Part shown: piece by piece, positions 24,792-30,082 of the stretch | Numbering within the stretch: the first letter of the stretch is position 1 | Layout of the letters: each line of letters opens with the position of its first letter | From: Nitrospina sp. | GTDB taxonomy: Bacteria; Nitrospinota; Nitrospinia; Nitrospinales; VA-1 | Reading direction: 5' to 3' | Assembly: GCA_018697205.1 (NCBI GenBank) | Contig: JABHTG010000113.1 | Location: forward strand, 1 to 64,000 | Length of the DNA: 64,000 nucleotides | Made by a program: the position numbers and the translations under genes | Notes under the pieces: generated by a model | Database searches by the model: none | What the model saw: the letters and a program-made list of their open reading frames with translations, nothing else | What the model was told of the DNA's origin: nothing

Positions 24792-26375
24792 TTACTTCCT
24801 TGAGGAGTGCTTGGAGAATGAATTAAGTTTATATTCGACACTATCTATTAAAGCTTGCCAACTAGCCTCAATAATGTTGTCCGATACACCGACAGTTCCC
24901 CATTTCGAATTATGATCTCCTGATTCAATCAGTACACGTGTTTTAGCCTGGGTGCCTTTATTCTGGTCTAGAATTCTTACTTTGTAATCAAAAAGTGACA
25001 CATTTTTCATTTCAGGATAAAATTTACCTAACGCTTTTTTAATAGCCTTATCTAAGGCATTAACTGGTCCTATGCCTTCAGCAGCGGTAACTTCTTGTAT
25101 CCCGTTGACCCGAATTCTTACTGTGGCTTCTGATATAGGTTTTTCATCTTCGCCTCTTTGCTCTACAATTACACGAAAACCAATAAAATCAAAAAAGTAC
25201 TCTTTTTCGCCAAGGGCATCACGCATTAGTAGCTCAAAGGAAGCCTCTGCCCCTTCGTATTGATATCCAAGTTGCTCAAGTGATTTAAGCTTATCCAGTA
25301 TACTTTTTAATTTTTGGTCATGATCGTCAATATCAATGCCATACTCTTGAGCCTTTGATAGAATATTGCTTTTACCAGATAGGTCAGAAATTAAAATTCG
25401 TTGAACATTACCGACCGATTCAGGAGTAATATGCTCATATGTGGCACTATTCTTTTTTACAGCACTAACATGAATTCCACCTTTATGAGCAAATGCACTT
25501 TTGCCGACATAAGGTTGATGATTCCAGTGTGCTTGATTAGCAAGCTCATAAACAAATGATGATAAATCCGTTAACGATTGCATTTGTTTATCTGAAATAC
25601 AGTTCAAACCCAATTTAAGTTTTAGATTTGGGATTACGGAAATGAGGTTCGCGTTGCCGCACCGTTCACCGAATCCATTTATTGTCCCTTGCACCTGTTC
25701 AACGCCAGCCTGGATTGCTGCTAGCGCATTAGCTACTGCAAGCTCTGAGTCATTATGGGTATGAATTCCGATTTTTGTGTTAATAGAATTTTTTACCAAG
25801 GAACATGCTTGTTCGACCTCAGACGGTAGAGACCCTCCATTAGTATCGCAAAGTACAATCCAGTCGGCTCCAGCAGATTCTGCTTCCTTAAGCACTTTCA
25901 TGGCATATTCAGGATTGTTCTTAAAGCCATCAAAAAAATGTTCTGCATCAAACAAAACTTCAGAACAATTATCTTTAAGATATCTTACGCTATCCTTAAC
26001 CATTCGGAGGTTTTCTTCCAAAGTTGTGGAAAGTGCTTCTTTAACATGCATATCCCAACTTTTCCCAAAAATAGTGACAACATCTGTTTTTGCTTCAATC
26101 AGATTTTTAATATTTTTATCATTCTTTACATCATTTTTTGGGTGGCGCGTGCTTCCAAAAGCAGTGATTTTCGCTTGTTTAAAGTTAATACTTTGGATTC
26201 GACTAAAAAAATCCATATCTTTTGGGTTTGAGCCGGGCCAGCCTCCCTCGATGTAATTTATTCCAATTTCATCGAGCTTATGAGCAATCCGAATCTTATC
26301 TTCAACAGTAAAGGAAACATCTTCAGATTGAGAGCCGTCTCTTAATGTTGTGTCATAAAGGCTAATTATTTTCAT
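24792..26375 (-). CDS. cimA: (R)-citramalate synthase
   Basis: CimA condenses pyruvate and acetyl-CoA to citramalate, the threonine-independent entry to isoleucine. It has 527 residues: an HMGL-like TIM barrel starting YDTTLRDGSQSEDVSFTV, the CimA-type EGGWPGSNPKD, HTHNDSELAVAN with metal-binding His residues, GFGERCGNANL, and a C-terminal LeuA-type allosteric domain (about 400-520). The IEGGWPGSNP and FAHKGGIHVSA stretches favour CimA over 2-isopropylmalate synthase LeuA. It is the last gene of an operon apgM-like - lysC - cimA, separated from lysC by 45 bp. Confidence 0.93.
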   Translation of the reverse strand: MKIISLYDTTLRDGSQSEDVSFTVEDKIRIAHKLDEIGINYIEGGWPGSNPKDMDFFSRIQSINFKQAKITAFGSTRHPKNDVKNDKNIKNLIEAKTDVVTIFGKSWDMHVKEALSTTLEENLRMVKDSVRYLKDNCSEVLFDAEHFFDGFKNNPEYAMKVLKEAESAGADWIVLCDTNGGSLPSEVEQACSLVKNSINTKIGIHTHNDSELAVANALAAIQAGVEQVQGTINGFGERCGNANLISVIPNLKLKLGLNCISDKQMQSLTDLSSFVYELANQAHWNHQPYVGKSAFAHKGGIHVSAVKKNSATYEHITPESVGNVQRILISDLSGKSNILSKAQEYGIDIDDHDQKLKSILDKLKSLEQLGYQYEGAEASFELLMRDALGEKEYFFDFIGFRVIVEQRGEDEKPISEATVRIRVNGIQEVTAAEGIGPVNALDKAIKKALGKFYPEMKNVSLFDYKVRILDQNKGTQAKTRVLIESGDHNSKWGTVGVSDNIIEASWQALIDSVEYKLNSFSKHSSRK

Positions 26376-26420: not shown

Positions 26421-27656
26421 TCAGCTATTTTTTTCAGCATTAGTCATGTTAAATATTTTGTGTAAAACGCGGACGGCAAGCTCACCATATTGTTCTTCAA
26501 TAATGCAAGATACTCTTATTTCGGAGGTGCTTATCATTATAATGTTAATATTTTCTTTAGATAGGGCGCTAAACATTTTTGCGGCAACTCCCGGATGGCT
26601 TCGCATACCCGCGCCTACAATCGAAACTTTACAGATATTAGGATCAGCACTAATATTTCGTGCTTCTATAAGCTTACCTAGCTCTTGAACTATTTTGGTA
26701 GCTTTATTTATATCTTCTTTTGTGACAGTAAACGATATATCGGTATGCCCTTCATCACTTACGTTCTGTATAATCATGTCTACTGAAAGGTTTTCTTCCG
26801 CAAGTCCTATAAAAAATTTGCTAGCGATTCCTGGTTGATCAGGAACACCTTTGATCGTGATTTTGGCTTGGTTTTTGTCGTTCATTATTCCAGATACAAT
26901 TGGTTGTTCCATACTTAAATCCTCCTCACAGATCAAGGTCCCTTTCGAGTCTTCCACTAAAGATGATTTTACAATGAGTGGCATATCGTATTTTTTACAA
27001 AATTCAACGCAGCGAAATTGCAGTACTTTTGCTCCCAAACTAGACATTTCTAACATTTCGTCATAAGAAATACGGTCCATTTTATGAGCATTAGGCACAA
27101 CGTTAGGGTCGGCAGTATAAACCCCATTCACATCGGTATAAATTTCACATCTCTCTGCGTTTAAAGCCACAGCTATAGCTGCTGCGGAAGTATCTGAACC
27201 ACCGCGTCCTAGAGTAGTAACCTCTCCATGTTCACTTATTCCCTGAAAGCCCGCAGCAACTACGACGTTACCATTTTTTAAAGCCTTTATAGCACGGTTT
27301 GCATCAACTTCTTTAATACGTGCTTTTGTGTGTGAGTTATCAGTTAGCAATCCTATTTGCCTACCCGTCATGGAAACGGCTGAGCAGCCGATACTATTAA
27401 GTGCTATACTTAACAAGGCGCTCGAAATACGTTCTCCAGACGATAATAAAAGAGCCATTTCCCTATCTTTTTTGCTAGAGCTGATCTGATTGGCCATATC
27501 TAATAGTTTATCAGTTTCACCTGCCATTGCTGAAACGACAACCACAAGATCAAGCCCTTCCTTTCGCATACGGGCAATACGTTTTGCAACTTTTTTGATT
27601 CGCTCAATAGTACCAACAGAAGTACCGCCATATTTTTGAACTACTAATTTACTCAT
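26421..27656 (-). CDS. lysC: Aspartate kinase
   Basis: LysC phosphorylates aspartate, the first step to lysine, threonine and methionine. It has 411 residues with an N-terminal kinase domain ([21 protein letters not shown]) and two ACT domains at the C-terminus (about 265-405, with QPGIASKFF and HPGVAAKMF) that usually bind lysine or threonine. It begins 4 bp after the phosphoglycerate mutase-like gene, implying translation coupling. Confidence 0.96.
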
Positions 27657-27660
27657 AGTT

Positions 27661-28857
27661 TTAATTTATATCAAAAAACATATTCATTAAATCGGGGCCA
27701 GATTTAAAATGATTGTTTCTTTTATCAAGAAGATTTTCATCAAATTTATTTACTGAGTTTGTCTCATTTTTTCCACTTATTACAAATGGGACTCGGTCTG
27801 TACCATACTTTACATCGACAGCAGAGTTCATATGATTAACAACGACCATCATTTTGACATCGTTATTTTTTGAAAATTCTTTCAAAAGGGGATTAATTAC
27901 CTTTGAGTCGATATCTTCAATAGTAAGGATTTTGTCATCAATGTTCCCTTTTAGCGAGACTTCTTCTATTCCTGCAATATTAAGATAAACAATATCCTGC
28001 CTTTGCAACTCATGAATGGTTGCCTTTACTTTATTATTGAAGTTAGTTTCAGCAAAGCCGGTTGCACCTTCGACTGAAATCACGTTCATATTGGCTGCTT
28101 TACCTATTCCTTGAAAAAGTAATGATGCAGAAATAAGTGAACCGGGTTTCCCAAATTTTTTTTCAAATGGGTGAAGAGTTCCTTTTTTACCATTTCCCCA
28201 TAACCAAATACTATTAGCTGAATCTAAGTTTTCCAGTTTACGTTTTTTGTTTACCGGATGGTTATGTAATATGATTTGAGCTTGATTAATAATATAAATT
28301 AGCTCTTTAAATTGATCATCAACAGGCATAAATTTCCGAATACCTTCACCGATTAATTCGTTAGGTGGTGTCAAGCGTTTTGTAAACGGTTTGCTATGCA
28401 TAACCATTATATTATGAGGACCCAAACCAGGATAAAAATTAACTGCGCAATCTGATATTTGATTCTGAAGGGCGTTTAAGTAATTTTTAGATTCTTTGCA
28501 GGACAAGTGACCCGCGGTATAATCTTTCATTACCATATCGTTATGGCTAGCTTGGAGGGTCACAAAATCACAGCATAACGGAATTTCTCCATCTTTAAGG
28601 TTTAGTCCTATTGCCAGTGCATCAAAATATGCTGGGCCAATATCATTTTTTTCGGGATCGTAACCCAAAAGAGAAAGATAGGATATCTCGTTCCCAGTTT
28701 GACAGTTTTCAGGAATAGTTTGTACCGACCCAGAAATGCCTTCCTGAACCATTCTATCTAGGTTGGGTGTATCAGCAAGCTGCAATGGAGTCTTATTTTC
28801 TTTTTCTGCAATAGGCCTATCTGTAAGGCCATTGGCAATTAAAACCAAATATTTCAT
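27661..28857 (-). CDS. Archaeal-type phosphoglycerate mutase homologue lacking catalytic residues
   Basis: This 398-residue member of the cofactor-independent (ApgM) phosphoglycerate mutase family has clear landmarks: [21 protein letters not shown] and VEGATGF. Bacterial members beside lysC have been proposed as alternative homoserine kinases, which fits this operon. The alkaline-phosphatase-type active site is degraded, however. The N-terminal metal Asp is Asn9 (ANGLTD). The nucleophile Ser of GSD is Asn56 (TGNE). DEAGH has become EEVSL (298-302). ADH has become VNH (Asp to Asn341). The later His is Tyr351. It is therefore probably not a mutase and may be a binding or regulatory pseudoenzyme. 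The sequence comparison was made from memory of the family motifs. Confidence 0.85.
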
Positions 28858-29194: not shown

Positions 29195-30082
29195 ATGCAT
29201 AATATAAATGATATCTGTAAGGATGGTGGGTCTTTGCCCTTAAGTACAAAAGGAAACTTAAGAGTTGTCTTTTTGGGGGTTGGTTCGGCTTTTACCAAGC
29301 GTAACCGTCAATCGAATTTTTTAATCATACAGGGGGATTATCATGTTTTAGTAGATTGTGGCACTCTTGGGCCATTAGCCCTTGATGATGTAGGCTTAAG
29401 CGTCAGTAAAGTTCAGTGTTACTTACCTACCCACAGTCATGCCGACCATATTGGTGGTTTTGAGGAAGTTGCATTAGTTAACCGCTATATTTCAAGCTCA
29501 TCAAAGAAACCTAAAATGATTGTCCCAAAAGAGTATCAAGATTTGCTTTGGAATAAGAGTCTTGCAGGGGGAATTGAATTTTGTGAGACCAAAGAGGGGC
29601 AGCCACTCCAATTAAAAGATTTTTTTGATATTCTTTGTCCAAAAAAAATGGAATTACTTGGAAGGCAACTATGGTCTTACCAGTATGGCCCAATGGAATT
29701 GATTCTCATGCGCACACTTCATATCCCAGATTCTGCAATTAGAATGGACGACGCTCAATGGTGCTGCGGTATCTTGATAAATAGGAAAGTGTGGATTTCA
29801 GGAGATACAATGTTTGATAAGAATTATTCAACTCAGTTTTCACAGCTATCAGAGGTAATGTTCCACGATTGTCAAATGTTTCAAGGAGGTGTTCACGCTT
29901 CCTATCGCGAACTGATGACGCTTCCCGACAAGATACGTTCTAAAATATATTTATATCATTATAATGATAATTGGGATGATCCAAAAACTTGGATTGAAGA
30001 TTCAGATGACTTCACAGGTGATCCCATCAAAGACGGTTTTCTAGGTTGGGCAGCTCAGCAGGTGGCTTACGATTTTAAATAA
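29195..30082 (+). CDS. Metallo-beta-lactamase-fold hydrolase
   Basis: This 295-residue cytoplasmic protein has no signal peptide. It carries the metal-binding motif THSHADH (residues 79-85), a later SGDTMFD with the bridging Asp, and a C-terminal HDCQMF...GVHAS region. FLGVGSAFTKRNRQSNFLI at the start resembles RNase Z/phosphodiesterase-type members, but no exosite of RNase Z was recognised. The substrate is unknown. The gene stands alone, divergent from the aspartate kinase operon. The start at ATG 29195 lacks a good ribosome binding site and a few codons of uncertainty remain. Confidence 0.8.
   Translation: MHNINDICKDGGSLPLSTKGNLRVVFLGVGSAFTKRNRQSNFLIIQGDYHVLVDCGTLGPLALDDVGLSVSKVQCYLPTHSHADHIGGFEEVALVNRYISSSSKKPKMIVPKEYQDLLWNKSLAGGIEFCETKEGQPLQLKDFFDILCPKKMELLGRQLWSYQYGPMELILMRTLHIPDSAIRMDDAQWCCGILINRKVWISGDTMFDKNYSTQFSQLSEVMFHDCQMFQGGVHASYRELMTLPDKIRSKIYLYHYNDNWDDPKTWIEDSDDFTGDPIKDGFLGWAAQQVAYDFK

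Follow-up and report, generated by a model that had tools for sequence, protein, structure and literature searches.

The window, the 64,000-nucleotide stretch of DNA analysed here, encodes a homologue of the proposed homoserine kinase ThrB2 in which the nucleophile and all metal ligands but one are replaced. These losses have a single origin on the stem of the order to which the window belongs (Nitrospinales, Nitrospinota); the gene is under purifying selection and universally linked to the aspartate kinase gene lysC, whose start its stop codon overlaps in most loci. Our favoured reading, in which the protein serves LysC as a non-catalytic partner or sensor, is given slightly better than even chances.

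Loss of the catalytic site in a conserved fold

The gene (27661–28857, minus strand) is an open, full-length reading frame of 398 aa, and its product carries the PhosphMutase and Metalloenzyme domains of the ThrB2/apgM family, with Pfam matches to PF10143 (111.7 bits) and PF01676 (87.8 bits). Among the NCBIfam models, the protein passed the cut-off of TIGR00306 (apgM; 386.3 bits against 320) and missed that of TIGR02535 (348.5 bits against 446.3), the ThrB2 model, which is defined as a "proposed homoserine kinase" within the apgM phosphoglycerate mutase family. The nearest PDB structures by sequence were the archaeal apgM proteins 2zkt, 3kd8 and 3idd, and an AlphaFold2 model (pLDDT 92.1, pTM 0.92), for which an alignment of related loci served as input, returned 2zkt and 3kd8 as the top Foldseek matches in the PDB. 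On this model the protein is a full-length relative of TIGR02535/ThrB2 with a confidently predicted fold, in agreement with the initial annotation, which had described an open frame and intact fold landmarks. It is colinear with the TIGR02535 proteins over the full 398 aa, shares their domain order and their association with threonine/aspartate pathway genes (lysC and cimA adjoin it), and descends from the ThrB2 of its own phylum. However, all members of its order score below the TIGR02535 cut-off, and it lacks both metal sites, the nucleophile and several substrate residues and has newly fixed residues in the cleft. The archaeal apgM proteins, although they are its closest solved structures, are only 24% identical to it and keep the catalytic residues that it is missing.

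The reference positions were those of bacterial iPGM, whose metal ligands we take to be D12, D403, H407, D444, H445 and H462 and whose nucleophile we take to be S62; the window protein has N9, N56, E298, L302, N341, H342 and Y351 at the equivalent positions. In the alignments, Asn replaces the metal-ligand Asp at residue 9 (iPGM D12; 28831–28833, minus strand here and for the following codons) and the Ser nucleophile at residue 56 (iPGM S62; 28690–28692), EEVSL replaces the DEAGH motif with the ligands D403 and H407 at residues 298–302 (27952–27966), Asn-His replaces Asp-His at residues 341–342 (iPGM D444 and H445; 27832–27837), with His342 as the only ligand kept, and Tyr replaces the metal-ligand His at residue 351 (iPGM H462; 27805–27807). 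Six of the seven positions of the two-metal site and Ser nucleophile that mark TIGR02535 members are replaced, and the metal ligands and nucleophile of TIGR00306 members are missing in spite of the passing score. The initial annotation had listed exactly these replacements, each of which was confirmed, and had named ligands supplied by shifted residues as the result that would overturn its reading. A profile–profile alignment of 21 degenerate against nine intact proteins was colinear over 397 columns (probability 100), its sole gap being a single residue near position 366, far from the site; since it is nearly gap-free, it excludes shifted ligands at the level of sequence. The intact members also have fixed residues on the substrate side (Y72, R75, E79, R95, R148 and H149), and these too are lost or switched in the degenerate ones, including R95 to C and H149 to N. 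The evidence for loss of the alkaline-phosphatase-type catalytic site is strong, and, as judged from the alignments, the corresponding two-metal mechanism is almost certainly impossible for this protein. Its residues would qualify it neither as a functional ThrB2 nor as a functional apgM mutase, yet it clearly descends from that family.

Automatic annotation would call the protein an active phosphoglycerate mutase, given a TIGR00306 score well above the cut-off, but this is very improbable, because the nucleophile and nearly the whole metal site are gone and a separate enzyme covers the mutase step: dPGM (TIGR01258, mostly 380–400 bits; for example G000:C64:21055–21789) is present across the order and would serve its glycolysis. 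In the sampled sister orders dPGM was absent; iPGM (TIGR01307) occurred there in two genomes of one family, and several genomes carried further distant apgM-like copies. The distribution of dPGM against iPGM and apgM suggests a non-homologous replacement inside one class.

An order-wide clade under purifying selection

The initial annotation had treated the degeneration as a matter of a single gene; the losses were real and its scope was too small, as the clade spans the whole order. None of the order's 53 distinct sequences had retained the catalytic site. Position 9 was N, A, S or G in 51 of these, and both sequences that keep Asp9 have Ala at position 56, so that none retains Asp9 and Ser56 together. 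Position 56 was N in 43 of the 53, positions 298 and 302 were E and L in 52 of 52 readable rows (S301 is likewise fixed across the order), and N341, H342 and Y351 were found in 46, 51 and 49 of the distinct sequences, respectively. By contrast, in the proteins sampled from the other orders of the class the site was intact at every tested position, one protein being cut off before residue 341, and it was also intact in five relatives from Clostridia. The TIGR02535 scores were accordingly bimodal, with 508–571 bits in ten genomes from elsewhere in the class and at most 380 bits in the window's order, on either side of the cut-off of 446. In the phylogenetic tree the degenerate rows formed one group (support 100/99) with a long stem beside the intact sequences of the same class, which indicates that the loss most simply happened once and that the clade is monophyletic and vertically inherited. 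One further relative, a gene of Planctomycetota (L108:5892–7076) that is divergent from a grpE–dnaK–dnaJ-like cluster, has lost part of its metal site (D298 to V, D341 to G and H351 to S); it joins the tree by a very long branch, its placement is unsafe, and it appears to represent an independent, partial degeneration.

Within the genus, dN/dS of the degenerate gene was 0.07–0.17, compared with 0.05–0.17 for lysC and 0.04–0.08 for cimA. Every one of the order's 28 near-complete genomes (completeness ≥90%, contamination ≤5%) carried the gene. Identical losses across the 53 distinct sequences, together with dN/dS near 0.1, exclude chance or sequencing error as their source. A decaying pseudogene or an assembly or frameshift artefact, which the loss of key residues might have suggested, is refuted by these values, by the conservation of the gene, by a frame that is open in all full-length copies and by the confidently predicted fold, and retains a negligible probability. 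With a fold that is conserved in the model, catalytic residues lost in the alignments and purifying selection on its gene, the protein would count as a pseudoenzyme.

The mean identity of the degenerate protein was 57% within the order versus 37% to the intact outgroups, while the corresponding values for LysC were 70% and 59%, a pattern that fits rapid change on the stem followed by resumed constraint. The degenerate clade has acquired fixed residues of its own, among them C95, K111, G146, N149, E167, H198, E298, S301, L302 and S345, several of which occupy former active-site positions. Since C95, K111, N149, E298, L302 and S345 lie at or near that site, the cleft was apparently re-tooled and then frozen, rather than simply decaying.

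Threonine synthesis and the homoserine kinase step

Nearly all relatives had thrC and most had hom, which was found in 29 of the 30 near-complete genomes; hom was absent from the window's own genome, which is 85% complete, probably owing to this incompleteness. No ThrB above the TIGR00191 cut-off was found in 60 genomes, and nine loci with sub-threshold matches, when inspected, proved to be IspE beside prs. Neither ThrB_alt nor a second, intact TIGR00306 copy was found in the genomes of the order. Desulfovibrio uses a homoserine kinase of the shikimate kinase type (PMC5764234). Nearly every genome of the order had a single full-length shikimate kinase (SKI) match, which was taken as AroK, and the short extra ones were partial matches in frames of ~220 aa, so that a second kinase of this type was rejected. 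A kinase within the hom–thrC operon was likewise rejected, the neighbours at the inspected loci (L170, L172 and L176) being an aminotransferase, a formylglycine-generating-enzyme-like protein and a thioredoxin-reductase-like protein; the second of these (PF03781; L176:4481–5233) lies between thrC and the thioredoxin-reductase-like gene. Many genomes of the order contain two different threonine synthases above the TIGR00260 cut-off, one beside hom and the other elsewhere, which was near cysteine-synthase-like and MoeB-like genes where inspected.

The search for a separate thrB, which the initial annotation had proposed, thus recovered no recognised ThrB, ThrB_alt or second shikimate-kinase-like enzyme in the order, and, judged by the known families, the threonine pathway would have a gap at the homoserine kinase step. 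With hom and thrC present, either an unrecognised homoserine kinase exists or the window protein has a new site. This keeps alive the second option of the initial annotation, namely an enzyme with a new active site, which could be the missing homoserine kinase or another transferase with a site rebuilt without the two metals and the Ser nucleophile. Nitrospina gracilis is an obligate autotroph that was grown in mineral salts medium with 70% seawater (PMC3578206), which speaks for such an enzyme. The new invariant polar residues at former substrate positions point in the same direction. On the other hand, we know of no member of the alkaline phosphatase superfamily that transfers phosphate without its metals, and the substrate-side residues R75, R95, R148 and H149 were lost as well. 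In addition, the existence of other homoserine kinases that have yet to be recognised has been suggested (PMC5764234, PMC7311316). A rebuilt enzyme is therefore considered quite unlikely, and less likely than a partner or sensor of LysC; its specific form, in which the missing homoserine kinase of the order would have an alkaline-phosphatase fold and carry out phosphotransfer at a new site in the same cleft, without metals or nucleophile, is slightly more doubtful still.

Linkage to aspartate kinase and a possible regulatory role

In the window, lysC (26421–27656, minus strand; NF005155, 603.7 bits against a cut-off of 346), which encodes an aspartate kinase containing ACT domains, begins 4 nt beyond the stop of the pseudoenzyme gene, and cimA for citramalate synthase (24792–26375, minus strand; TIGR00977, 808 bits) is the third gene of the conserved cluster, providing a route of isoleucine synthesis that is independent of threonine. 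This lysC is the only complete aspartate kinase gene found in the genome; no second one was seen, the partial matches sitting in frames of ~240 aa. Wherever a locus has enough flanking sequence, the degenerate gene immediately precedes lysC, and cimA is third in nearly all loci. Of 52 loci, 40 have the stop codon of the degenerate gene overlapping the start of lysC (offset −4 or −1; ATGA, GTGA or TAATG type), and the remaining loci of the order have a gap of 4–6 nt (eight loci) or a longer one (four loci). The coupling to aspartate kinase claimed in the initial annotation therefore holds at the gene level, in linkage and start–stop overlap. No known riboswitch or other Rfam RNA was found near the gene at E values up to 0.1. 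A metallo-beta-lactamase-fold gene (29195–30082, plus strand), divergent from the pseudoenzyme gene and nearby in many relatives, matches the Pfam family Anti-Pycsar Apyc1 (104 bits) and is probably a housekeeping relative of that fold.

Adjacency to lysC is ancestral. Intact ThrB2 adjoins lysC in the outgroups G056, G057 and G058, the last of which has the cluster aminotransferase–hom–thrC–thrB2–lysC, and the neighbourhood may therefore be inherited rather than functional. The protein could accordingly act in the threonine/lysine pathway as a ligand-binding or scaffolding protein without metals, with a partner other than LysC, such as ThrC or Hom, and have remained beside lysC by inherited gene order only. 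Findings from Bacteroides thetaiotaomicron are compatible with this, as BT2402 is required for threonine-free growth, yet failed to complement E. coli thrB, and the possibility of a different role was kept (PMC7311316); BT2402 has been proposed as ThrB2 (PMC9026213), and homoserine kinase activity is unproven for the TIGR02535 family itself (PMC7311316). In the window's order, however, hom–thrC is located elsewhere, while the lysC link was retained and tightened to start–stop overlap, compared with offsets of 6, 34, 41 and ~240 nt in the four measurable loci of the intact outgroups. A partner other than LysC is thus regarded as unlikely.

Polypeptide pairs that are co-translated often form a complex, and pseudoenzymes are known as a general class of allosteric partners of metabolic enzymes, which the window protein resembles in keeping a fold without its catalytic residues and in having its gene next to that of an enzyme from the same pathway. 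The favoured reading, as a partner or sensor of LysC, starts from an ancestral ThrB2 whose two-metal phosphotransfer site was lost along the stem leading to the order, with its fold and its operon position upstream of lysC retained. The pseudoenzyme would be produced together with LysC and influence it without catalysis of its own. Most likely it would serve as a sensor: an aspartate-family metabolite would bind in the re-tooled cleft, which lacks the metals, and aspartate kinase would be tuned in response, so that the protein would regulate or scaffold the aspartate pathway, as the initial annotation had envisaged. The homoserine kinase step would then be carried out by an enzyme not yet recognised; as no other homoserine kinase is recognised, the window protein could still do this job itself. 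The open-access literature yielded neither an allosteric pseudoenzyme of this fold or beside an aspartate kinase nor a published description of the window protein.

For annotation, the protein would automatically be named a phosphoglycerate mutase and could be counted as a homoserine kinase by pathway tools, and its residues fit neither by known chemistry. The analysis also exposes an apparent gap in how a group of abundant marine nitrite oxidisers makes threonine. The natural, order-wide loss of the site makes a test case for ThrB2 function, since Bacteroides needs ThrB2 to grow without threonine, yet ThrB2 fails to complement E. coli thrB. If the proposed role is true, translation of a pseudoenzyme together with aspartate kinase would add a new form of control over the entry step of the aspartate family.
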